A stretch of DNA of 64,000 bases from Alphaproteobacteria bacterium (lineage in GTDB: Bacteria > Pseudomonadota > Alphaproteobacteria > JAUHZY01), in NCBI GenBank assembly GCA_030425825.1, contig JAUHZY010000001.1, positions 1,212,834 through 1,276,833 on the forward strand, read 5' to 3'. A model generated the notes under the pieces. It worked only from the letters and a program-made list of their open reading frames with translations. It made no database searches and had not been told where the DNA came from. Position 1 is the stretch's first letter; every line of letters begins with the position of its first letter. The position numbers and the translations under genes were made by a program. Positions 41,209 to 54,197 of this stretch are shown in pieces.

Positions 41209-42213
41209 CTAGAATCTAACTGATACACTTAATGCGCCGAATTTATCGCGTGCTTGCTGCTGTTTAAATTCCTTACTTCTGACAACATGCGTATAGGCAA
41301 TACGTAGATCTCCATAAGTAAAAGCAACACCAGCTTGGATATCACCGACGAAGCCTTTTCTATCAACGCTGTGACTGTCATCAAATGTGTTACCATCTAG
41401 AAAGATATTCCTTGCAATAGCACGCCCCTCAGCGCCTGCAAATAGATACCAACCAACTTGCTTGGTTGGTACAAAAAAGTCAGATCCTGGTAAAGATGGT
41501 TGAATGCGAGGGGGGCCGAAATCTGATGGCAAGTCATAACCTATACGGGCTGTTAGACCTGTTGCTGCATAGGTATAAACATTACCAATAGCACCACCAA
41601 GATGAGGGGTAAAATCCATTGCTAAACCAAAAGGAGAAAACTGATAAATATTTCTCCACTTTGTTTCATATCTTAGAATCACACCCAGCTCGTCGCTCAA
41701 CTGATGTGACCACCCTTTAGGGTCTTGAGAATCTGTCCATTCATGCACTCTTTTCTGAGAAAGCTCACTTCCTGAAGAAGGCCCAACAACACCAACCGTT
41801 AACTGAATGTTATCATAAGAAGTTCCTTTATCTGAAATAATACCAAATCCCAGATAGCTCCATCCTGCGTAAGGACGATCAGACACGATCAGATCACTAC
41901 GTGTAATATCTCGAGGAGTGAAAATATTTTGACCGACAGAAAGTGAGTATCTTTTCTGACCTGATTCATCAAAAAAAGGAAGAAGCTCTGAAAAAGAATA
42001 CAACCATTTTGGAATCTCTTCTTCTGCAGAGAGCCAAGAAAAGCGTACGCCATTTGTAAAATGACGATCCCTGTCTGCAAAGTAATCATTCTCAAAGTTG
42101 AACGTCAAGATACCTGCATCATCTTCTTCATCACGATAAACGTGGCTTTCCTCAGCAAAAACCGGTAAAGAAAAGAAGCAAAAAAACAAAAAGAATATAA
42201 AAGATATTTTCAT
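41209..42213 (-). CDS. LpxR-like outer-membrane lipid A deacylase (DUF2219)
   Basis: 334 aa from MKISFIFFLF; a longer open frame runs into the flagellin gene. The signal peptide is cleaved after PVFA. The mature protein shows the family motifs NFENDYFADRDRHFTNG (Asn/Asp site), SDRPYAGW and the active-site His in QKRVHEW, and ends in an aromatic SVSVRF as expected for a beta-barrel. LpxR removes the 3'-acyloxyacyl chain of lipid A. It starts 50 bp after the last flagellin on the same strand. Confidence 0.83.
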   Translation of the reverse strand: MKISFIFFLFFCFFSLPVFAEESHVYRDEEDDAGILTFNFENDYFADRDRHFTNGVRFSWLSAEEEIPKWLYSFSELLPFFDESGQKRYSLSVGQNIFTPRDITRSDLIVSDRPYAGWSYLGFGIISDKGTSYDNIQLTVGVVGPSSGSELSQKRVHEWTDSQDPKGWSHQLSDELGVILRYETKWRNIYQFSPFGLAMDFTPHLGGAIGNVYTYAATGLTARIGYDLPSDFGPPRIQPSLPGSDFFVPTKQVGWYLFAGAEGRAIARNIFLDGNTFDDSHSVDRKGFVGDIQAGVAFTYGDLRIAYTHVVRSKEFKQQQARDKFGALSVSVRF

Positions 42214-42262
42214 GTCAAAATTATTCCCTAGTAACATAAACATTAAGCTGATGGAATAAGTT

Positions 42263-43987
42263 CTAACGACCTCCAAACAAGATATCAATCAAGTTTTGTA
42301 TCGATTGGTGTGAGTTCGTCATTGAGAACAAACTCAATTGCTCGCGTGTCTCAAGGGCCAGTCTGTTAGCAGATTCTTCTTCTAAATCTGCCAGCGTCAG
42401 TTTATCGCCTGCTTCTTCATGCGTATTGACTAAGTCTTCTGTCAGCTCTAGGCGGGTTTGTAATAATGCAAAATCTGCTGCATATGAAGCAGCTGTTGTT
42501 TTCAGTTTGTTTAAAGCACGGTCTAATTTTTCGATTGTAAAGTCAACGGTTTGATAACTTAAGAAATTGATTTCACTTTTTGGAATACCCAATGCTTCTT
42601 GACGCACATCCGTTCCTTCAATTGAAAGAGATGTATCATCTGAAAAATCGACAACAAACTCTATAGGCTTTCCACTATCATAGACTGTTAATCCATCTGT
42701 TGAATCCGTTACATAAATCAAATCTTCATAAGGATGTAAGTACCCTGCGTTTGCAGTTGTTGGAATATTATTAAGGTAATTTAACGTTCCATCATTGTTA
42801 ACTTCATAGACTTCTATACCATTTGTTGTTGTTGCATAAACATAGTCATCATCACCACGTACGCTGCTGTAATCTCCTGCTTGCTTATCTGTATCAATTG
42901 CTGTCAGTGCACCATTGGCGTCAACACTATGTGATCGTATACCACCTGTACGAGAAACACTGTAAATATATTGACCATCACCCCATATGCCTGTTTCATC
43001 ATCAGCTGCGCCAGGATTTGTAGACATGTGTGTGAGTGTACCATCTTCTGCGATATCATATGTGTGAATACCACCGGCTTGTGCCGCAACATACAAAAAG
43101 TTGCCATCACTAAATATGTCGTTATAAGACCCGCCTTGATCATCTGTATCAACAAGGCTCAGCTGGCCATTGCCATCCACATCATAAACGTAAATACCAG
43201 AAGAATAGCCTGTTTGATAAATATAATCACCATCGCCATAAATACGACGTGTTTCTCCAGGACCTGGTGTAATTTGATCAACAAGAACGGCCGTACCGTC
43301 ATCAGCAACATCATAAACACTAACATTCGAAGTAGCTACACCTGCAGGATATGTTGTATAAGCAACATACAAAAAGTTGCCATCGCTCCAAGAGTCTTGA
43401 ACATCATTTCCAGCAATCGTACTCACATTGGTTAACGTTCCATCATCATTTTGTGTGTATATTTCAACGTTGCTGCGGTTAGACAAGTAGACAAAGCGAT
43501 CATCTACTTCCATGCGCACTGGAGTCCCCCCAGGATTATCACTGTCCAATAATGTTGGTGTTGTAGTATTATCTTCAACGAGAAGATTGACGCCATTATG
43601 ATGTGAGTCTTCAGCAATCTTTGTGATTTCCTCCATAAGTTTTTGTGCCTGAGCTTGAAGAATAGTGCGCTGTTCTCCATTCGCTGTTTTTGCTTCTTCG
43701 GCCAGACCTTTTGCCTGCTTAACAAGTGTTTCTATTGCCACAATGCCATGCTGCGTTGCTTTCAACGTACTGATCGCCTGATCAATATCGTCTTTGCGTT
43801 TCAGTAGGCTATCCGCCTTGTCATAAAGGCCCTTCGCTTTGAAGTACTCAACAGGACCATCCAGAATGTCGTTGACCTTCTTACCTGTCGCCAGGCGCTT
43901 CTCAACAGTCGCTGTCAGATCCTTGATCTGCTGATGGTTCAACAAACTGTTTCTCATCGCAGAGGTGAGCTTAATGTCATTGATCAT
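42263..43987 (-). CDS. flagellin with a seven-bladed beta-propeller insert (fourth in the array)
   Basis: 574 aa from the ATG at 43987 behind GGAGG. Residues 1-~135 are the flagellin N-terminal domain (MINDIKLTSAMRNSLL; RLATGKKVNDILDGP; AKGLYDKAD) and the last ~95 the C-terminal domain (LLQTRLELTEDLVNTHEEAG; NRLALETREQLSLFSM). Between them seven repeats of about 37 residues carry the pattern W-x-D-G-x-x-(L/I)-Y-V... Y-D-V... G-x-L, for example DIFSDGNFLYVAA and SVRGDDDYVYATT, as in a YVTN/lactonase-like propeller. It ends FGGR, unlike the other three (FGGGS), and has no repeat at its 3' end, so it closes the array. Confidence 0.85.
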   Translation of the reverse strand: MINDIKLTSAMRNSLLNHQQIKDLTATVEKRLATGKKVNDILDGPVEYFKAKGLYDKADSLLKRKDDIDQAISTLKATQHGIVAIETLVKQAKGLAEEAKTANGEQRTILQAQAQKLMEEITKIAEDSHHNGVNLLVEDNTTTPTLLDSDNPGGTPVRMEVDDRFVYLSNRSNVEIYTQNDDGTLTNVSTIAGNDVQDSWSDGNFLYVAYTTYPAGVATSNVSVYDVADDGTAVLVDQITPGPGETRRIYGDGDYIYQTGYSSGIYVYDVDGNGQLSLVDTDDQGGSYNDIFSDGNFLYVAAQAGGIHTYDIAEDGTLTHMSTNPGAADDETGIWGDGQYIYSVSRTGGIRSHSVDANGALTAIDTDKQAGDYSSVRGDDDYVYATTTNGIEVYEVNNDGTLNYLNNIPTTANAGYLHPYEDLIYVTDSTDGLTVYDSGKPIEFVVDFSDDTSLSIEGTDVRQEALGIPKSEINFLSYQTVDFTIEKLDRALNKLKTTAASYAADFALLQTRLELTEDLVNTHEEAGDKLTLADLEEESANRLALETREQLSLFSMTNSHQSIQNLIDILFGGR

Positions 43988-43998
43988 GACCCACCTCC
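43966..43998 (-). repeat. 33-bp SD-start repeat, copy at the start of the fourth flagellin
   Basis: Reads GGAGGTGGGTCATGATCAAT then GACATTAAGCTCA on the minus strand. It covers the Shine-Dalgarno, the start codon and the first codons of the gene, and also the last codons and stop (TCATGA) of the mini-ORF upstream. Confidence 0.9.
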
Positions 43999-44094
43999 AT
44001 ATGTTGTCCCAACATCTCGCGATAAGATGATGATACGCCACGCGCTACGCGCTTCGGCTATGAGGGCAGAGATGAGCTTAATGTCATTGATCAT
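43984..44094 (-). CDS. 36-aa mini-ORF between third and fourth flagellins
   Basis: Starts with the flagellin beginning MINDIKLISA and ends TTYGGGS with its TGA overlapping the next ATG. The middle reads LIAEARSAWRIIILSRD. It begins on the end repeat of the gene before it (ATGA overlap). It looks like a flagellin frame from which nearly everything has been removed, or a coupling peptide. Confidence 0.45.
   Translation of the reverse strand: MINDIKLISALIAEARSAWRIIILSRDVGTTYGGGS
44001..44015 (-). promoter_or_regulatory. hairpin directly before the ribosome site of the fourth flagellin
   Basis: ATGTTG-GGA-CAACAT on the minus strand, a perfect 6-bp stem with a 3-nt loop, ending 2 nt before GGAGG. 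It is inside the mini-ORF, so moving ribosomes would open it. Confidence 0.5.
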
Positions 44095-44105
44095 GACCCA
44101 CCTCC
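44073..44105 (-). repeat. 33-bp SD-start repeat, copy at the end of the third flagellin
   Basis: Identical core to the start copies. Here it supplies the last codons (GGGS) and stop of the third flagellin and the start of the mini-ORF. Confidence 0.9.
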
Positions 44106-45869
44106 AAACAAGATATCAATCAAGTTCTGTACCGACTGGTGCGAGTTCGTCATTGAGAACAAACTCAGTTGCTCACGTGTCTCAAGAGCCAATCTATTCG
44201 CAGATTCTTCTTCTAAATCTGCCAGCGTCAGTTTATCGCCTGCTTCTTCATGCGTGTTGACTAAGTCTTCTGTCAGCTCTAGGCGGGTTTGTAATAACGC
44301 AAAGTCTGTGGCGTAAGATGCGGCTGCTGTATCCGTTTTTGCGATTGCCTGATCTAAGCGTTCAAGAAAGCCGTCAATATGTTTCGCGCTACCAAAGTCA
44401 ATCGTAGGCGCTTGAATACCAAGATTATAGCTGTTCAGGTTTGTACCATATATTGTTTGTGAGGTGTCATCACTAAACTCAACTTCCATTTGGAAACCGT
44501 TTGTGCGAACATCGAACACATCAATCCCATTCTCATGGTTGGCTAAGTAAACATGAGTCCCATTGGCCCAAATATCAATCCGTGTATTGGCTGAAACAGT
44601 TGGTGGACTCATCGCACCAACGCTGGTAATCTGTCCAGCATCATCAACGGTGTAAATTTCAACACCATCTGTTAATGTTGCGCCGTAGTAATAAGTTCCA
44701 TCAAGCGCAATAGAATAAACATTATCGTTCAAATCATCAGCATCTATTTGAACAAGTGTGTTTGTTGCTTCATCAAATCGCATTGATCTGACATCATTTC
44801 CTCCATCGGCAACTAAAAGATTTACCCCATCACCTTTAATTTCGTGAGCATCAAATGTATCTCTTTCATCAAGCCAAGTAAGTTGGCCTGTGTTTGGATC
44901 AACATCATAAACATGCACACCATCACGTGTCGTATTGAAATAGAGGTGGTTACCATCTGTAAAGATGCCAGCTGGACCTGTGCTACCAGCAGGGGTTGTG
45001 ACTGCTGAGATATCCTGTCGATCTAACTCCGTTAGTGTGCCATCCTCATGGCGTTCTAGAACGATGATCTCAGCATTGTTTCCACCCGTATCGTTAGCAA
45101 CATATAGAAATTTGTCATCTCCCCATACATCGGTCAGATCAACACTAGATCCTAAAGTATAATATGTTGTATATGATAGTGTTCCATCCGAACGATTAAT
45201 CTCATGAAGGTAAAGTCGGTTGCTTTGTGATACTGTATACAGATGTGTTTCATCTCCCCATACATCGTAAGAGTTCTGTGTTCCACCATAATATGTAAGC
45301 GTTAACTCGCCTGTTATATCATCAATTTCATAAACTGAAACAAACTCGCTTTCCCCAGCAACATAAACATAATCATCATCACCCCAAATAGACATTGCGT
45401 GACCTGAACCAGAGAGCGGAACATTCTGAACATGACTCCCTCCTATATTTGGCTCATTGTAAATAAGGTTTGTGCCATTCATGCTTGAATCTTTCAATAT
45501 TTTGTCGTACTCGCGCATAAGTTTCTGAGCCTGGTCTTGTAGCTTCTGTTTTTTAGCAGCCGATGCGTTGCGCGCCTCTTCTGCCAAACCTTTGATTTGA
45601 TCTAAGATCACGCTGGCATGTGTAATGCCATTTTGTGCGCCCTTCAATACACTAATACCTTGAGCAATCCCCTCTTTGCGTTTTAAGAGATCATCTGCCT
45701 TGTCATAAAGACCCTTCGCTTTGAAGTACTCAACAGGACCATCCAGAATGTCGTTGACCTTCTTACCTGTCGCCAGGCGCTTCTCAACAGTCGCTGTCAG
45801 ATCCTTGATCTGTTGATGGTTCAACAAGCTGTTTCTCATCGCGGAAGTGAGCTTAATGTCATTGATCAT
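44091..45869 (-). CDS. flagellin with a seven-bladed beta-propeller insert (third in the array)
   Basis: 592 aa. The N-terminal flagellin domain starts MINDIKLTSAMRNSLLNHQQ and the C-terminal one ends QSVQNLIDILFGGGS. The insert (about residues 145-490) again has seven propeller blades, among them SIWGDDDYVYVAG, DVWGDETHLYTVS, GIFTDGNHLYFNT and DIWANGTHVYLAN. Its insert is closest to that of the first flagellin (shared NEPNI start and ELDRQ/ELDRE, GELTLT pieces). The stop lies inside the end repeat. Confidence 0.85.
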   Translation of the reverse strand: MINDIKLTSAMRNSLLNHQQIKDLTATVEKRLATGKKVNDILDGPVEYFKAKGLYDKADDLLKRKEGIAQGISVLKGAQNGITHASVILDQIKGLAEEARNASAAKKQKLQDQAQKLMREYDKILKDSSMNGTNLIYNEPNIGGSHVQNVPLSGSGHAMSIWGDDDYVYVAGESEFVSVYEIDDITGELTLTYYGGTQNSYDVWGDETHLYTVSQSNRLYLHEINRSDGTLSYTTYYTLGSSVDLTDVWGDDKFLYVANDTGGNNAEIIVLERHEDGTLTELDRQDISAVTTPAGSTGPAGIFTDGNHLYFNTTRDGVHVYDVDPNTGQLTWLDERDTFDAHEIKGDGVNLLVADGGNDVRSMRFDEATNTLVQIDADDLNDNVYSIALDGTYYYGATLTDGVEIYTVDDAGQITSVGAMSPPTVSANTRIDIWANGTHVYLANHENGIDVFDVRTNGFQMEVEFSDDTSQTIYGTNLNSYNLGIQAPTIDFGSAKHIDGFLERLDQAIAKTDTAAASYATDFALLQTRLELTEDLVNTHEEAGDKLTLADLEEESANRLALETREQLSLFSMTNSHQSVQNLIDILFGGGS

Positions 45870-45880
45870 GACCCACCTCC
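45848..45880 (-). repeat. 33-bp SD-start repeat, copy at the start of the third flagellin
   Basis: Followed on the minus strand by CTTCCGCGATGAG, the variant also found in the first flagellin but not in the second and fourth. Confidence 0.9.
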
Positions 45881-45976
45881 ATATGTTGTCCCAACATCTC
45901 GCGATGAGATGATGATACGCCACGCGCTACGCGCTTCGGCTATGAGGGCAGAGATGAGCTTAATGTCATTGATCAT
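45866..45976 (-). CDS. 36-aa mini-ORF between second and third flagellins
   Basis: Same length and layout as its neighbours (MINDIKLISA ... TTYGGGS), with one residue changed: RIIISSRD instead of RIIILSRD (TCA for TTA). One-base variation without frame loss hints at selection on the frame or recent duplication. Confidence 0.45.
   Translation of the reverse strand: MINDIKLISALIAEARSAWRIIISSRDVGTTYGGGS
45883..45897 (-). promoter_or_regulatory. hairpin directly before the ribosome site of the third flagellin
   Basis: Same ATGTTG/CAACAT stem 2 nt before GGAGG as in the other spacers. Confidence 0.5.
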
Positions 45977-45987
45977 GACCCACCTCC
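45955..45987 (-). repeat. 33-bp SD-start repeat, copy at the end of the second flagellin
   Basis: Gives the second flagellin its GGGS ending and the following mini-ORF its start codon. Confidence 0.9.
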
Positions 45988-47349
45988 AAACAAGATATCA
46001 ATCAAGTTCTGTACCGACTGGTGCGAGTTCGTCATTGAGAACAAACTCAATTGCTCACGTGTCTCAAGAGCCAATCTATTCGCAGATTCTTCTTCTAAAT
46101 CTGCCAGCGTCAGTTTATCGCCTGCTTCTTCATGCGTGTTGATCAGATCTTCTGTGAACTCAAGGCGGGTTTGTAATAATGCAAAGTCCGTCGCAAAACT
46201 GGCAGCAGTGCTGTCCATCCTGCTCAGGGCAGCGTCAATTCTGTCTATTGTTGTATCAACCCCTAAGGAAGAAAAATCAAGGAAGGAAAGACCGATGCCG
46301 CTTGACCTTAGATTAACACCATCAATGAGATGTGAGGTATCATCTGAGAAGTCAACATTCAGATTGTGTGCAAAGTCTTCGTCAAAAGAGTTCGCCCAGA
46401 AGTCAGCTGGTGTAATGTTGCCCAAGGTTCCATCATTACCATTCCCAGAGTTATCATACGCAATTGTTCCAGATCCTTCAATTAACGGATAATCAAAGAG
46501 AATGGCACCACCACTTGTCATGCTCGCACCATCCATCATGCCGCCGAAAGAATTGGACCCACCAGTCGCACGCGCACCCACCCAGAAACCTGACCCTGTC
46601 GTTGGAGACCCTGCTGCAGGAATACTAATAACCTGGACACCATTTACGCTCACCGTCGCAACACCGCCGCTGTAAGTCATCGTAATATCTTGATAATTGT
46701 TAACATCAATCACGTTATTAGCCGTGACTGTCGAACCATTTATCAGAAGGCTAATATCGCCATTAGATATGTAAAGATCAAAGCGGGCAGTGCTATCTAT
46801 CGGAGAAAGTAATGTTTGACGTGATGTATCACCATCAGGATTCATGCTTGTTCTAAAGGTAAAGTCATTTCCTGCAGGCACACCATAAGGGGCAACAAGA
46901 CGGTCATCAACCCCATCAAAGGTTGCAACAGGAGATTCTTCCAATAAGTTAACGCCATCTTTATGAGTGTCATGAATAAGGTTGTTATACTCACCCAGCA
47001 GTTTATTAGCCTGCGCTTCTAGGATGATTCTCTGTGCTGCAGATGCATTGCGTGCTTCTTCAGCCAGGCCCTTGACCTGCTCAATAATCATGCGACCATT
47101 TGTGATACCATGCTGTGTTGCTTTCAACGTGCTGATCGCCTGATCAATATCGTCTTTACGTTTCAGTAACCCATCCGCCTTGTCATAAAGACCCTTCGCT
47201 TTGAAGTACTCAACAGGACCGTCCAGAATGTCGTTGACCTTCTTACCTGTCGCCAGGCGCTTCTCAACAGTCGCTGTCAGATCCTTGATCTGCTGATGGT
47301 TCAACAAACTGTTTCTCATCGCAGAGGTGAGCTTAATGTCATTGATCAT
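45973..47349 (-). CDS. flagellin with a LamG/concanavalin-like insert (second in the array)
   Basis: 458 aa. The flagellin N- and C-terminal domains match the other three, but residues ~145-330 are a jelly-roll LamG_3-like domain: VATFDGVDDRLVAPYG at its start, FTFRTSMNPDGD, RFDLYISNGDISLLING, ITMTYSGGVATVSVNGV, GFWVGARATGG and NGNDGTLGN. LamG domains commonly bind glycans or proteins. C-terminal part DSTAASFATDFALLQTRLEF resembles the first flagellin most. Confidence 0.85.
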   Translation of the reverse strand: MINDIKLTSAMRNSLLNHQQIKDLTATVEKRLATGKKVNDILDGPVEYFKAKGLYDKADGLLKRKDDIDQAISTLKATQHGITNGRMIIEQVKGLAEEARNASAAQRIILEAQANKLLGEYNNLIHDTHKDGVNLLEESPVATFDGVDDRLVAPYGVPAGNDFTFRTSMNPDGDTSRQTLLSPIDSTARFDLYISNGDISLLINGSTVTANNVIDVNNYQDITMTYSGGVATVSVNGVQVISIPAAGSPTTGSGFWVGARATGGSNSFGGMMDGASMTSGGAILFDYPLIEGSGTIAYDNSGNGNDGTLGNITPADFWANSFDEDFAHNLNVDFSDDTSHLIDGVNLRSSGIGLSFLDFSSLGVDTTIDRIDAALSRMDSTAASFATDFALLQTRLEFTEDLINTHEEAGDKLTLADLEEESANRLALETREQLSLFSMTNSHQSVQNLIDILFGGGS

Positions 47350-47360
47350 GACCCACCTCC
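47328..47360 (-). repeat. 33-bp SD-start repeat, copy at the start of the second flagellin
   Basis: Followed on minus by CCTCTGCGATGAG, the variant shared with the fourth flagellin. Confidence 0.9.
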
Positions 47361-47456
47361 ATATGTTGTCCCAACATCTCGCGATAAGATGATGATACGC
47401 CACGCGCTACGCGCTTCGGCTATGAGGGCGGAAGTGAGCTTAATGTCATTGATCAT
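47346..47456 (-). CDS. 36-aa mini-ORF between first and second flagellins
   Basis: Reads MINDIKLTSA, one residue closer to a true flagellin start than the other two mini-ORFs (LISA), and its DNA there (CTTCCGC) equals that of the first flagellin. It ends TTYGGGS on the ATG of the next gene. Confidence 0.45.
   Translation of the reverse strand: MINDIKLTSALIAEARSAWRIIILSRDVGTTYGGGS
47363..47377 (-). promoter_or_regulatory. hairpin directly before the ribosome site of the second flagellin
   Basis: Third copy of the ATGTTG/CAACAT stem next to GGAGG. Confidence 0.5.
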
Positions 47457-47467
47457 GACCCACCTCC
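47435..47467 (-). repeat. 33-bp SD-start repeat, copy at the end of the first flagellin
   Basis: Contains the first flagellin's stop codon and the mini-ORF start in a TCATGA overlap. Confidence 0.9.
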
Positions 47468-49225
47468 AAACAAGATATCAATCAAGTTCTGTATTGATCG
47501 GTTTGAGTTCGTCATTGAGAAAATGCTCAATTGCTCACGTGTCTCAAGGGCCAATCTGTTAGCAGATTCTTCTTCTAAATCTGCCAGTGTCAGTTTGTCG
47601 CCGGCTTCTTCATGCGTGTTGATCAGATCTTCTGTCAACTCTAGGCGGGTTTGTAATAATGCAAAGTCTGTTGCAAAGCTGGCAGCAGTGCTGTCCATCC
47701 TGTTCAGGGCTGTATCCATACGTGCAATAAACCCATCAATATGCTCGGCACTGCCGAAATTAATCGTAGGCGCTTGAATGCCTAGGCTGTAACTGCTTAG
47801 ATTTGTGCCATTAATTGTATGGAATGTCGTATCAGAAAAATCGACCGTGATGTCAAAACTATTAGAACGTATATCAAAAACATCAACACCTGTACTGTAA
47901 TTTGCATAATAGACATGAGTGCCATTTGTCCAAACATCGACCTGAGAGTTGCCGTTGACAGCAGGAGGTGACAGGGTCGTTTCTCTTGTTATTTGGCCTG
48001 TGTCATCTAGGCTGTAAACTGTTATGCCTGTTGTGCTATTGGCGCCATAATAATAAGTACCATCTGTTGCGATACCATAAATATTATCATTGACATCAAT
48101 TCCATCATTTTGAATCAGTTGTCCAGTTGCGCTATCAAAATAGAAAGAGCGTGCATCTCTTCCTGCATCTGCAAGGAAGAGGTTTTCACCATCTCCTGTA
48201 ATTTGTCTTGCGTCAAATGTGTCATACTCATCAATCCATGTTAATTGTCCTGTATTTGGATCGACTTCAAAAGTGTGCACCCCGTCACGTGTTGTTGAAA
48301 GATATGTATAATCACCATCAGTAAACATGCCAGCAGGATCAGTACCAGCTGCAGGCGCTGTGAAGTTGGCAATTTCTTCTCTATCAAGCTCTGTTAATGT
48401 GCCATCCGCGTGTCTTTCAAGAACAATAAGCTCCGCAGTGCTTCCGCCAGAGTCATTTGCGACAAATAGATATTTATCATCTCCCCAAACATCCGTGAGT
48501 TGAACTGTGCCAAGGGTATAGTTAGCAACAGTTGTGTAGGTTCCTGTTGTGCGGTCAATATCATAAACGTAAACACGGTTGGCATTAGAAATAGAATAGA
48601 GGTACTCACCATCTGACCAAATATCATATGAATCTGTGCCACCGCCAGATTGTGTTAATGTCAGCTCTCCAGTGACATCATCAATCTCATAAACAGATGG
48701 AGCAGACCCTCTCCCCGAGACATATAAAAAGTCACTATCACCCCATAAAGCAACTGCATCGCCTGCTGGAGTGACATTTTGAACATGCTGCGCACCAATA
48801 ATATTTGGCTCATTGTATACAAGGTTTACATTGTTAACAGACGCATCTTTTAAGATTTTGTCATATTCTTTGATAAGCTTTTTCGCCTGGTTTTCTAAAA
48901 TCTGCTTTTGCACAGGACTTGCGTTGCGTGCCTCCTCAGCCAACCCTTTAATTTGCTCTAACAATAATTGGCTGTTATCAATACCATTCTGTGCGCCTTT
49001 CAACGCGCTGATCGCCTGATCTATTCCTTCTTTACGCCTCAACAATCCATCCGCCTTGTCATAAAGGCCCTTCGCTTTGAAGTACTCAACAGGACCGTCC
49101 AGAATGTCATTAACCTTCTTACCTGTCGCCAGGCGCTTCTCAACAGTCGCTGTCAGATCCTTGATCTGTTGATGGTTCAACAAGCTGTTTCTCATCGCGG
49201 AAGTGAGCTTAATGTCATTGATCAT
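47453..49225 (-). CDS. flagellin with a seven-bladed beta-propeller insert (first in the array)
   Basis: 590 aa from the ATG at 49225. Flagellin domains at both ends (MINDIKLTSAMRNSLL; DKLTLADLEEESANRLALET). The insert has seven blades: ALWGDSDFLYVSG, DIWSDGEYLYSIS, DVWGDDKYLFVAN, GMFTDGDYTYLST, QITGDGENLFLAD, GIATDGTYYYGAN and DVWTNGTHVYYAN. It is the first gene transcribed, behind the leader ORF and a sigma54-like promoter. The flagellin ends drive type III export and filament packing, so the propeller would lie on the filament surface. Confidence 0.85.
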   Translation of the reverse strand: MINDIKLTSAMRNSLLNHQQIKDLTATVEKRLATGKKVNDILDGPVEYFKAKGLYDKADGLLRRKEGIDQAISALKGAQNGIDNSQLLLEQIKGLAEEARNASPVQKQILENQAKKLIKEYDKILKDASVNNVNLVYNEPNIIGAQHVQNVTPAGDAVALWGDSDFLYVSGRGSAPSVYEIDDVTGELTLTQSGGGTDSYDIWSDGEYLYSISNANRVYVYDIDRTTGTYTTVANYTLGTVQLTDVWGDDKYLFVANDSGGSTAELIVLERHADGTLTELDREEIANFTAPAAGTDPAGMFTDGDYTYLSTTRDGVHTFEVDPNTGQLTWIDEYDTFDARQITGDGENLFLADAGRDARSFYFDSATGQLIQNDGIDVNDNIYGIATDGTYYYGANSTTGITVYSLDDTGQITRETTLSPPAVNGNSQVDVWTNGTHVYYANYSTGVDVFDIRSNSFDITVDFSDTTFHTINGTNLSSYSLGIQAPTINFGSAEHIDGFIARMDTALNRMDSTAASFATDFALLQTRLELTEDLINTHEEAGDKLTLADLEEESANRLALETREQLSIFSMTNSNRSIQNLIDILFGGGS

Positions 49226-49236
49226 GACCCACCTCC
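49204..49236 (-). repeat. 33-bp SD-start repeat, copy at the start of the first flagellin
   Basis: Most upstream of the seven copies. On its 5' side the sequence keeps only CAACATAT of the spacer and then diverges into the leader ORF. Confidence 0.9.
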
Positions 49237-49335
49237 ATATGTTGTGTGCAGACACAAAACAGTACGCAGGAGCAAGCCCATGGCATCTGCCATGTTCTCT
49301 TTCCTTCTAAACTGTCTTGCGCACATCTTCAGCAC
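49222..49335 (-). CDS. 37-aa leader ORF before the flagellin array
   Basis: GTG start at 49335 with GGAG 6 nt upstream (49345-49342). It reads through MCARQFRRKEN and MADAMGLLLRTVLCLH to TTYGGGS, and its TGA overlaps the ATG of the first flagellin exactly as the mini-ORFs do. Its body is unrelated to the mini-ORF bodies. The shared tail is partly forced by the ribosome-binding sequence, so it may be a non-selected frame. Confidence 0.4.
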   Translation of the reverse strand: MLKMCARQFRRKENMADAMGLLLRTVLCLHTTYGGGS

Positions 49336-49360
49336 GTTATTCTCCATATAATTTGAACTT

Positions 49361-49379: not shown

Positions 49380-49382
49380 GAT

Positions 49383-49396
49383 GCCAAATACGTGCC
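49383..49396 (-). promoter_or_regulatory. sigma54-like promoter of the flagellin array
   Basis: GGCACGTATTTGGC on minus: GG and GC are 12 nt apart in first-base register, as required, and the -24 half GGCACG is perfect; the -12 half TGGC has one mismatch to TTGC. The 5' leader would be about 145 nt. Confidence 0.5.
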
Positions 49397-50756: not shown

Positions 50757-51790
50757 AAATTCATTAAATATCCTAAGACAAGAATTTGCGGCAATGTGAA
50801 AAGAGGCAAAAATAATGCTATTTTCCATGATCCAGTTGTCTCACGAAGACTCAGCATTTCAGTGTAGTCCGTCGACACACCTGCCATTAGAAAAGTAAAG
50901 GCATTTCCCGGCGCAGCCGCGCGTGTAAACAAATCATACGCAATGGGTATTGAGCCTTCTGAACATACCTCAAATAAAGTCGCAAACACTAATGTCATCC
51001 CCAGCCCCATTAATGATGGACCAAAATATTGACGCATCATGTCGCCATCAACAAAAACTTGAATCAGTCCCGCCAACACAACGCCGAAAAAAAGCCAGCG
51101 TAAAACCATTTGACTTTCAATGACTGCACGGCCTAATAGCCTGCCAACACCCAAAACAGACAAGTCAGCTTCTTTTCTTTTTATTGCAAAAGCTTGCTTA
51201 ACCGTTTCTTCAGAAAGCTTCTGAGGCGTGTTTGGATTTGCTGGCAAGACACCGCGATGGACAAGTGCATCAAAGATATAACCTGTAACAAATGCCATGA
51301 TCATTGAGAGGATAAGAAACAAAGCCGTCCATCCCCAGCCAATAAAAGAAACTAAAATAACCGTCAATGAAATTGAATTCCAAGGACTGGCAATTAAAAA
51401 GGCCATAACCTGCCCCAAACGCGCACCTTGCTTATAAAGCTTCATACCAATTAATAAAATACCATGCGAACAGAGGTCAAACAAAACACCTGCCAGCGTT
51501 GCACGCCACAAGCCTTTCATTTTTTTCTCACTTGCGAGAAATTTTAGAAGTACATTTTTGGGAATAAGATCCATCACAGCAATAAAGAAAACGCCCGTCA
51601 AAATACCAATCCACATCTTATCGAGAAGCTCTGAAATTTTTTGGCTGTACTCAAAAACAAACCCAGGATGAAAGCTTTCTATATATAAAAAATCATATAT
51701 ATAAAATGGAACTGTTAGAAAAAGGGACCCCCACAAAATCCAATCAAATTTTTTCTCTGATTTATTTTGGGATGGACAACAGCTAGACAT
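50747..51790 (-). CDS. predicted permease (COG0701, SO_0444/ArsP type)
   Basis: 347 aa with about eight membrane segments. LWRATLAGVLFDLCSHGILL and RLGQVMAFLIASPWNS give the repeated Cys/Gly/Pro core of this permease family; a second copy of the pattern is FEVCSEGSIPIAYDL and NAFTFLMAGVSTDY. A cytoplasmic loop (~50 residues) separates the halves, and CCPS lies at the N-terminus. Related proteins export metals or arsenicals; the substrate is unknown. Overlaps the Ddl fusion by 8 bp. Confidence 0.75.
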   Translation of the reverse strand: MSSCCPSQNKSEKKFDWILWGSLFLTVPFYIYDFLYIESFHPGFVFEYSQKISELLDKMWIGILTGVFFIAVMDLIPKNVLLKFLASEKKMKGLWRATLAGVLFDLCSHGILLIGMKLYKQGARLGQVMAFLIASPWNSISLTVILVSFIGWGWTALFLILSMIMAFVTGYIFDALVHRGVLPANPNTPQKLSEETVKQAFAIKRKEADLSVLGVGRLLGRAVIESQMVLRWLFFGVVLAGLIQVFVDGDMMRQYFGPSLMGLGMTLVFATLFEVCSEGSIPIAYDLFTRAAAPGNAFTFLMAGVSTDYTEMLSLRETTGSWKIALFLPLFTLPQILVLGYLMNFYG

Positions 51791-54197
51791 GTTTTCCTAC
51801 TCTCTTAAACTGACTTACCACTTCATCTCCCTTTGCAAGTTCAATAAGCTTTTCCAAGAAAGCCGTTGGATATAGCGAGGGCGTTTCAGCAAGGGCCTGA
51901 TGGTAAATCACTGTTGAAGGCGTTAAGCCTGGTAGTGAATTGGCTTCAATCACAATCACATCACCTGAATCAATGTTGAGAAAATAATCAATGCGGCTAT
52001 AATTCCCAATGCCAATGGCATTCGCAACACGTGCGATTTTCTCACGAGAAGCATCCACAATTTCTTGTGAAACAATTGATGTTGGTGGTGGTGTAATATT
52101 CACGCCTGTCCCACCTTGGAACTTCTCTTCCAATGATAAAACATTTCCTTCTGCAACCGTGATGCTAGGGTTCATGGGGTAGTAATTTCTACCCTGCTCT
52201 AGCACGCCAAGCGTCAACTCGATCCAGCCTTCATTTTTCACATGTTTTAATTGTGCGCCTTCGATAATCACTTCATCTGTTTCAATAAAACTTTCAACTA
52301 AGAAGAAAAAGTTCTCCATCTCTGACAACTCGATAATCTCGGTTTGGTTTGTAAACGTGCCAGGTGGAATAAGCGTGCTGCGATCAAGTGTCATTTCAAC
52401 ATAAGATTGCAGTTCATTGGCATTATAAAGTCTAACGATACCTGCAGAGCAACCATCACCATTTGGCTTGATAATAAATGTTTGTGTTTTTAATTTATCC
52501 TGTAAATCTTTCCAGAATTCCTGAAAATCCGAAGCCGTATAATCTCGGAATAATCTAAAATCCATTTCAATCTTTGGGGCTGTCATAATGGTTGAATCAC
52601 CCAAAGCTTCGACGACCTTCCCTGTTTGCGCCTTATCCATCGCAATTTGCGCGCCATCAAAACCCGAACCATTATGACCTATTCCTTTTGCCTCAAGACG
52701 TTTTGCCCAATGACCATCTTCGCCTTCGCCGCCATGCAAAGCCAAAAAGACAAATGTCTTGTCATCAAGAAAATCTTCCATTGCGATAGGCTGAGGTGAA
52801 ATTTTTAAATCAGTTTCATTGTTTAAGCTAAGTTTCTTACGCACCTGCTCTGCCATTGGCAGCAAGCGCGCCATAATTTCATTTGCATGGCGACAATGAT
52901 GATGAATTTCTTCTACTGTATGGTTTAAAGTGAAAGCATAAGGTAATGTCCAGATCTGTCCCTTTTTATCTAACAGATAAGGAGATGGATCATATTTTTC
53001 AGATTGCTTTAGTTTTAACCAAACGTTCGTGCCGCTCATTAATGAAACTTGGCGCTCAGCAGTTTTACCACCAAATAAAATGCGGATTTTTTCTTTATTT
53101 TTTACAGCCAATTTTTCAGCAGGAAAGGTCAGATCTTCGCGCTTGCAAGCAGAACCAACAACATAAGACAACATATCACGATGCGTCATACCAACACGGG
53201 CACCTTGTTGGAACAAAAAGCTGTTTTGTTCCATGCCACTAAGTGGGTTAATGTCAGAGAACCAAATATTCCCATCATCCAAAACCCATCCATCAATACG
53301 TACAAAGTCTCGCATCCCAAAAAGGTCAAAAATCTTTTCTGCTTGCGACTGGATACTTGTAATAACTTCATCCGAGAAACGCGGTGGCGTATGATAAATA
53401 ACCTGAGCAGTCGGCAGGTATTTATTACGATAATCAAAAATGCGGCGCTTATCATCTGCGCGACCAACAAGCATTTCAATTTCTGAAGGGACAAGCGCAA
53501 CAGGGTCTCCATCAGGATTCTGCAAAATAATAACCGTAAATTCCTTACCTTCAGCATATGGCTCAATATAAGCATCTGTGCCAGGAGTATCTTTCAATGC
53601 TTGGCGTGTCATTTCAATAGCTTCTTCTTCGCCAATGGCCACCTGAACACCAATACTTGAACCACCTTCAGCAGGCTTTATCACACATCTTAGTAAATCA
53701 TTTTTATCAAAAAACTGTAAAATGCGTTGTTTGATATCTTGTGTTTTTGTTGAAACTGTCAAAGAGTCTGGAATATAAAAACCTGCATCTTTCAGCGTTT
53801 TTTGTGCCAATGATTTATTAAACATTTTACGACAGGCTTGTGCATTTGAAGCGACAAAAGGAATATCATTTCTTTCCAATAAGTCTTGCAACCCACCATC
53901 TTCACCAAACTCACCGTGCATAGCCGGAAAAACAAGATCGACTGACTTCAAACGCTCAATCAACTGGTCTTGTGTTAATGTCGTTGCGGTTTGTTTTAAT
54001 TTGAAATCAAAATCAGAAGGTGTATTAGAATAAAGCTGAGAAGGTGAAACTTCGTAGAATTCTTTTTCAAGATCAACATAAATAGGAACAATTTGAACAG
54101 CATCACTTTGCAAATGATCCATCACTGAACGTGCAGAATTAAGAGATATGCCTCTCTCGGCCGATGGCCCTCCACAAATTACAGCAAGCTTAAACAT
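51783..54197 (-). CDS. tandem fusion of two D-alanine-D-alanine ligase-like ATP-grasp units
   Basis: 804 aa, more than twice normal Ddl. The first unit (~1-365) has ICGGPSAERGISLNSARS, AMHGEFGEDGGLQDLL, IKPAEGGSSIG and DINPLSGMEQ at the metal site. The second (~370-804) has ILFGGKTAERQVSLMSG, ALHGGEGEDGHW, IKPNGDGCSAGI and the canonical EANSLPGLTPST. Only the second keeps the classical metal-site motif (E-x-N-x-x-P-G-[LM]-T). Ddl makes the dipeptide for peptidoglycan; with two units it may make a different dipeptide or work as an internal dimer. It has an SD, GAGGAG, before the start. Confidence 0.85.
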   Translation of the reverse strand: MFKLAVICGGPSAERGISLNSARSVMDHLQSDAVQIVPIYVDLEKEFYEVSPSQLYSNTPSDFDFKLKQTATTLTQDQLIERLKSVDLVFPAMHGEFGEDGGLQDLLERNDIPFVASNAQACRKMFNKSLAQKTLKDAGFYIPDSLTVSTKTQDIKQRILQFFDKNDLLRCVIKPAEGGSSIGVQVAIGEEEAIEMTRQALKDTPGTDAYIEPYAEGKEFTVIILQNPDGDPVALVPSEIEMLVGRADDKRRIFDYRNKYLPTAQVIYHTPPRFSDEVITSIQSQAEKIFDLFGMRDFVRIDGWVLDDGNIWFSDINPLSGMEQNSFLFQQGARVGMTHRDMLSYVVGSACKREDLTFPAEKLAVKNKEKIRILFGGKTAERQVSLMSGTNVWLKLKQSEKYDPSPYLLDKKGQIWTLPYAFTLNHTVEEIHHHCRHANEIMARLLPMAEQVRKKLSLNNETDLKISPQPIAMEDFLDDKTFVFLALHGGEGEDGHWAKRLEAKGIGHNGSGFDGAQIAMDKAQTGKVVEALGDSTIMTAPKIEMDFRLFRDYTASDFQEFWKDLQDKLKTQTFIIKPNGDGCSAGIVRLYNANELQSYVEMTLDRSTLIPPGTFTNQTEIIELSEMENFFFLVESFIETDEVIIEGAQLKHVKNEGWIELTLGVLEQGRNYYPMNPSITVAEGNVLSLEEKFQGGTGVNITPPPTSIVSQEIVDASREKIARVANAIGIGNYSRIDYFLNIDSGDVIVIEANSLPGLTPSTVIYHQALAETPSLYPTAFLEKLIELAKGDEVVSQFKRVGKHV

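Follow-up and report, generated by a model that had tools for sequence, protein, structure and literature searches.

The window (the whole stretch of 64,000 nucleotides analyzed, from contig JAUHZY010000001.1 of Alphaproteobacteria bacterium assembly GCA_030425825.1) contained, at 42263-49225 on the minus strand, four tandem open reading frames (ORFs), P0001 to P0004, all of which encoded flagellins with a foreign fold in the center (Table 1). An earlier note on this stretch had claimed such an array, and the claim was borne out by the positions of the ORFs and by Pfam matches to Flagellin_N, Lactonase, and Laminin_G_3; the tandem array stood, but it proved to be one part of a genome-wide set. 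The genome (1.95 Mb in 11 contigs, 99% complete) harbored ten flagellin genes, eight with a foreign beta-rich center and two plain; of the six outside the window, three had LamG-like centers (Pfam gave no match for one of these), a fourth had CBM_4_9, and the remaining two were plain. Six or seven flagellins were placed at the high end per cell in a review (PMC8306008). The flagellar apparatus genes FliF, FliG, and FliH/FliN-like were also present. Display of the foreign folds on the filament was plausible from the sequences, and we regard it as moderately probable that the eight products belonged to the filament and presented binding modules on it for adhesion or recognition.

Flagellin ends and foreign centers

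All four ORF products started with MINDIKLTSAMRNSLL (longer form MINDIKLTSAMRNSLLNHQQIKDLTATVEKRL) and had a helical segment at the end, for example LQTRLELTEDLVNTHEEAGDKLTLADLEEESANRLALETREQLS. Flagellin_N (PF00669) exceeded the Pfam cut-off in P0001-P0004, and the C-terminal ~130 residues could be aligned with both plain flagellins of this genome and with alphaproteobacterial flagellins of solved structure, FljK among them (E 5e-6); the ends, described as intact in the earlier note, were thus found to be genuine. The best NCBIfam matches were the flagellin models PRK12688/PRK14708 (E 1e-23 to 2e-28, below the full-length cut-offs of those models), compared with which the FlgL model TIGR02550 was not favored (E 0.009-0.21 in P0001, P0002, and P0004). 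Between the ends, PF10282 (Lactonase, seven-bladed propeller) exceeded its cut-off in P0001 (E 3e-10), P0002 (E 1e-11), and P0004 (E 7e-12), and PF13385 (Laminin_G_3) reached 43.9 bits in P0003 against a cut-off of 27.6. Because of these E-values, the intact frames, and the recurrence at three other loci of the genome, the array domains were not regarded as chance matches.

P0004, the only propeller whose fold was modeled, was submitted to AlphaFold2 with a three-sequence alignment. The model displayed seven four-stranded blades at residues ~156-462 (predicted local distance difference test [pLDDT] mostly 70-93 in this block) and low-scored, flagellin-like helices at both ends. Foldseek placed 6-phosphogluconolactonase 3scy first in PDB (E 1e-12) and, in BFVD, matched viral propellers from Caudovirales and from large DNA viruses; superposition on a Caudovirales COG3391 protein gave a root mean square deviation of 3.5 over 342 columns. 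The seven-bladed propeller predicted by the earlier note was therefore recovered in P0004, with a length of ~320 instead of 350 residues, and the repeat (W)GDGxYLYVx was readable seven times in P0001 and in P0004. For P0003, a single-sequence structure model had a pLDDT of 42, and LamG was assigned there from the Pfam sequence profile.

The GPRH...NE residues of lactonases are catalytic. In the profile alignment, GSGPRHLIF...INE of 3scy was matched by GSVELTDVY...AND (GPRH to VELT, NE to ND); the motif was lost, and catalysis by the propeller centers would therefore be unlikely. It is accordingly improbable that propellers or LamG domains made the filament enzymatic (lactonase, sialidase, or glycanase) in the manner of flagellinolysins: the closest PDB relatives of the propeller were 6-phosphogluconolactonases and enzymatic flagellins do exist (PMC5595980), but the similarity to enzymes was at the repeat level only, no HExxH motif was found in the sequences of P0001-P0004, and the flagellinolysin model NF033876 was listed for P0001 only, at its flagellin end (21 bits against a cut-off of 205). 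Among the roles proposed in the earlier note, ligand binding was favored, with LamG and CBM_4_9 recurring in the gene set, while enzymatic action was not, with GPRH/NE aligning to other residues.

Mosaic genes, leader ORFs, and promoter sites

The sequence comparison was applied to the seven flagellins of the MINDIK clade, distributed over three loci (the window array, L020, and L021). Residues 1-59 were 97-100% identical, with fourfold-degenerate sites 78-100% identical, whereas the centers had 10-31% protein identity and 6-53% fourfold identity, excepting the pair P0002/P0004 (60% identical); the P0001 propeller displayed ~31% identity to those of P0002/P0004 in local matches. DNA identity was ~0.9-1.0 over the first 180 nt and dropped to ~0.5-0.7 further in, at a point differing by pair; P0004 and L021a, which lie on different contigs, were identical over their final 180 nt as far as LFGG. 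This contrast of ends and centers fits gene conversion or end exchange. Near-identical ends, mutually unrelated centers, and end exchange are also the pattern of H-antigen variation, and diversifying selection is the usual explanation of flagellin variable regions (PMC7018530), so the centers might be a surface camouflage against flagellum-specific phages, grazers, or host immunity, without a specific ligand; we consider this unlikely, as the replacements were non-random, with LamG, CBM_4_9, and propellers recurring and one center grouping with modules of tail-type proteins.

Each MINDIK gene was preceded by a small ORF ending in ..TYGGGS or ..TYGGES, the stop of which overlapped the flagellin ATG (ATGA); the leaders at L020 and L021 were longer than the 41-residue leader before P0004. 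The C-terminal GGGS codons of each internal flagellin doubled as the Shine-Dalgarno sequence (GGAGG) of the next ORF, and this GGGS tail was absent from the last genes of both arrays (P0001 and L021b). The copies of the 33-bp repeat were located at 49204-49236, 47435-47467, 47328-47360, 45955-45987, 45848-45880, 44073-44105, and 43966-43998, and the 91-bp spacer had good-score matches in flagellin arrays only. The pattern GGCACGNNNTTNGCA occurred four times genome-wide, each time upstream of a foreign-domain flagellin locus (reversed-pattern control, 0): CGGCACGTATTTGGCA lay upstream of the three MINDIK loci and TGGCACGTTTTTAGCA upstream of L022, both being GG-N10-GC, which we take to be the sigma-54 promoter type.

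Transcription would proceed with the flagellar program from a sigma-54 promoter, and translation would be coupled via the ATGA overlaps; the products would be exported by the flagellar type III system and polymerized via their D0/D1 ends beside, or instead of, the two plain flagellins. The common 5′/3′ ends together with the 33-bp repeats would allow duplication and end exchange, generating new heads by recombination. Silent pilin loci offer a comparison for shared ends plus direct repeats, and these two features would also suit a silent cassette store, in which most of the eight genes recombined into one expressed locus; however, each locus had its own promoter site, Shine-Dalgarno sequence, and intact ORFs, and no promoterless truncated copies were seen, which makes such a store very improbable.

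Table 1. Features of the window array and flagellins elsewhere in the genome
Feature	Position	Strand	Description
P0004	47453-49225	-	590 aa; first array gene; seven-bladed propeller between flagellin ends
P0004 propeller stretch	47807-48793	-	residues ~145-473; AlphaFold2 model and Foldseek
P0003	45973-47349	-	458 aa; LamG/ConA-like domain between flagellin ends (PF13385, E 3.6e-11)
P0003 LamG_3 (ConA-like) stretch	46528-46908	-	residues 148-274; Pfam
P0002	44091-45869	-	592 aa; propeller between flagellin ends
P0002 propeller stretch	44499-45464	-	Pfam and sequence comparison
P0001	42263-43987	-	574 aa; divergent propeller between flagellin ends; last array gene
P0001 propeller stretch	42668-43579	-	Pfam and sequence comparison
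Sigma-54-type promoter site GGCACGTATTTGGCA	49382-49396	-	pattern match
Leader ORF MENNVLKM...TTYGGGS	49222-49347	-	41 aa; stop overlaps P0004 start (ATGA)
Mini-ORF MINDIKLTSALIAEAR...TTYGGGS	47346-47456	-	36 aa; overlaps P0004 stop and P0003 start (ATGA both)
Mini-ORF between P0003 and P0002	45866-45976	-	36 residues; same anatomy as P0004/P0003 mini-ORF
Mini-ORF between P0002 and P0001	43984-44094	-	36 residues; same anatomy as P0004/P0003 mini-ORF
33-bp direct repeat GGAGGTGGGTCATGATCAATGACATTAAGCTCA	43966-49236	-	seven exact copies; at Shine-Dalgarno plus start, and at gene 3′ end
L020			flagellin, 504 aa; LamG_3 center
L021a			first of two tandem flagellins, 462 aa; center without Pfam match, 33% identical over 133 aa to LamG-containing L140 protein; counted as LamG-like
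L021b			second of tandem pair, 477 aa; LamG_3 center
L022			flagellin, 424 aa; CBM_4_9 center, above cut-off
L023			two plain flagellins, 273 and 272 aa; beside FlbT, FlaF, and TPR/GT41 glycosyltransferase

Directly downstream of the array, 41209-42288 encoded an LpxR-like outer membrane lipid A deacylase (PF09982, E 1.5e-114), the listed ORF of which overlapped the P0001 end. In a further ORF of 804 aa at 51783-54197, two D-alanine-D-alanine ligase units were fused head to tail, with PF01820 and PF07478 each matching in two stretches. Overlapping open frames of low complexity, with a high content of His/Tyr/Arg or Ser/Pro, preceded the CBM_4_9 flagellin at L022:292-1050; they probably mirror a repeat array on the opposite strand.

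Origin and distribution of the modules

In the LamG tree, the starred branches forced at least two changes of flagellin label, and the L020 module clustered with the modules of the L139 and L140 proteins (support 100/98). Because the L020 LamG grouped with prophage tail-type modules, modules were captured more than once, and at least two separate origins of the flagellin LamG modules were shown at the level of the tree. The L139 and L140 proteins looked like prophage tail proteins, because two of three L139/L140 LamG proteins matched PHROG virion structural and tail-fiber families and an M15 endolysin gene was located near the L139 protein gene; phage records searched with two queries, the P0002 propeller and the LamG module of L020, returned no match, so the phage link is drawn from the PHROG families and the neighboring genes. 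New heads would then be drawn from a pool that also serves phage-tail-type and RTX/adhesin-type proteins. The prophage-like regions L139:3025-6186 and L140:2929-9113 of this genome (C2 ~369-372 kb and ~586-592 kb) encoded 1,013-1,054-aa proteins with several LamG modules, and L138:1596-12209 (approximately) encoded a ~3,530-aa RTX-repeat protein with about six LamG modules, the N-terminal part of which recurred at the start of the next large ORF.

A survey of flagellins in other genomes, which the earlier note had suggested as a check, gave no other propeller flagellin in searches of 385 alphaproteobacterial, 399 Pseudomonadota, and 104 Micavibrio-like-family genomes (overlapping samples, with two of the searches scoring only the top few candidates per genome), and it yielded LamG flagellins in the Micavibrio-like family. 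Four full-length profile matches in the Micavibrio-like set were rejected as propeller flagellins, being ordinary Flagellin_IN-type flagellins. For the long-centered alphaproteobacterial flagellins (L042-L048 and L079-L098), testing or reading showed an ordinary variable or a Flagellin_IN region in every examined member except L084 and L085. The plasmid search gave ordinary flagellins only, none spanning 80% of the query, and the first scan of genome contigs gave no close relatives of the array, the listed relative genomes being of the same class only.

In the Micavibrio-like family, about a dozen of the 61 genomes gave full-length LamG flagellin matches above 300 bits, partly as tandem copies, and the Micavibrio sp. 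DHS20C02 record was among the carriers; Pfam was run on two of these flagellins, and one of the flagellins was located in a cluster with FlgE- and FliF-like genes. Because the insertion sites differed (Flagellin_IN region versus after NGVNLL), LamG insertion into flagellins was most likely independent in the window genome and in this family, to judge from the sequences. The P0001 propeller was as close to the propellers of giant prepilin-like Micavibrio-like proteins (32% over 192 aa, E 4e-17) as to its array neighbors. At three Micavibrio-like loci, L145-L147, the WGDGxYIYVA propeller repeat occurred many times in giant proteins (1,300-2,500 aa), the repeats following a prepilin-like N-terminus in L145 and L146 and being accompanied by a LamG-like plus C-type-lectin-like region in L147.

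Proposed filament display and known systems

Propellers, LamG sandwiches, and CBM sandwiches are compact, with the chain ends brought together, and are therefore suited to insertion; such beta-rich binding modules (propeller, LamG/ConA-like sandwich, CBM_4_9) would have replaced the variable outer domain. The variable flagellin center faces outward and tolerates large changes (PMC5595980, PMC7018530), and the inserts would project in many copies and bind glycans or surface proteins, which would let the cell adhere multivalently to a surface, host, or prey or recognize it. Adhesion or recognition was favored because binding-type folds recurred and were akin to modules of tail-type, RTX, and lectin-like proteins; a binding role was also supported by large Micavibrio-like proteins of surface type, which combined similar propellers with a C-type-lectin-like region and LamG.

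Six points weighed against eight filament flagellins with binding modules: (i) Flagellin_C (PF00700) stayed below the Pfam cut-off and was listed only for P0003 (E 0.2); (ii) the pattern GGCACGNNNTTNGCA was taken from these very loci, so that what it tells lies in its lack of matches elsewhere and in the fact that L022 agrees with the arrays; (iii) one promoter sequence was common to three loci through duplication, leaving two independent promoter examples only; (iv) conservation of the mini-ORF frame was seen through substitutions only, with no indels to probe the frame; (v) structural and enzymatic functions are known for LamG and propeller folds as well; and (vi) filament assembly, expression, and ligands were inferred. 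As to structural roles, dimerization of outer domains in other bacteria influences how they move in viscous media (PMC8931119), and the outer domains here might thicken or sheathe the filament or alter its stiffness for viscous settings, but a single regular sheath is not what one would expect from eight different, mostly unrelated centers, and there is little likelihood of this.

Beyond the display of binding modules itself, we tentatively propose, as a possibility with considerable doubt, an interchangeable-head flagellum: arrayed flagellins with recombining ends and a common promoter type would be reloaded with heads from a pool of phage tail fiber, RTX, and pilin-like adhesins, making the filament a mosaic, multi-specific adhesive surface. 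The data suggest that the flagellum serves for swimming and also as a surface that displays modules for attachment or recognition. If so, the flagellar filament would be a general natural display scaffold into which whole folded binding domains are swapped, and phage receptor-binding-type modules and flagellin heads would share one pool. Filament engineering could then draw on these naturally tolerated inserts of about 160-330 residues, and the connection of a motility organelle with target recognition could be tested in small-genome alphaproteobacteria, among them relatives of the predatory Micavibrio.

Sialidases have a propeller fold. In 2017, 61 domain families were listed in flagellin centers (Eckhard et al., PMC5595980), with vWFA and sialidase among the ten commonest inserted domains and Peptidase_M26 also in Table 1 of that paper, and inserted metallopeptidases were shown to be active on filaments. 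Given that list and the LamG flagellins of the Micavibrio-like family, the earlier note, which knew of no described family of propeller flagellins in tandem, had overstated the novelty. The array resembled flagellinolysins and other domain-inserted flagellins of that paper in having a foreign folded domain in the exposed center between conserved ends, a scattered distribution, and insertion into a resident flagellin; those that have been characterized are HExxH metallopeptidases active on filaments, whereas this genome had lactonase-like propellers, LamG, and CBM, several kinds together, in arrays with exchanged ends. In the Micavibrio-like LamG flagellins (L085 and L113), Laminin_G_3 likewise lay within a flagellin that had an ordinary one as neighbor in a flagellar cluster, but their insert replaced the neighbor's Flagellin_IN site in the first conserved domain, before ..QYRGINLL, while that of the window followed NGVNLL, and their LamG sequences grouped apart from those of the window genome.

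The window propellers shared fold, blade number, and sequence profile with the Lactonase family (PF10282; PDB 3scy, 1ri6) but were embedded in flagellin and did not retain GPRH/NE. Multi-flagellin Caulobacter (six flagellins, PMC8306008) had a similar FlaF/FlbT context, several flagellin genes, and D0/D1 homology; the Caulobacter-type flagellins of solved structure have ~273 aa and lack outer domains, in contrast to the ten genes here, eight with foreign domains. H-antigen variation (PMC7018530) also combines conserved ends, divergent centers, and recombination breakpoints in the ends, but its alleles replace each other between strains, whereas many heads of recognizable foreign families coexisted in this one genome. 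No description of a propeller or LamG flagellin came up in literature searches, with subscription papers mostly outside their reach. Within the range of these tools, the new features were heads of the lactonase-type propeller kind, LamG heads in two lineages, the coexistence of three or four head types in one genome, and an array anatomy combining exchanged ends with a prophage-related module.

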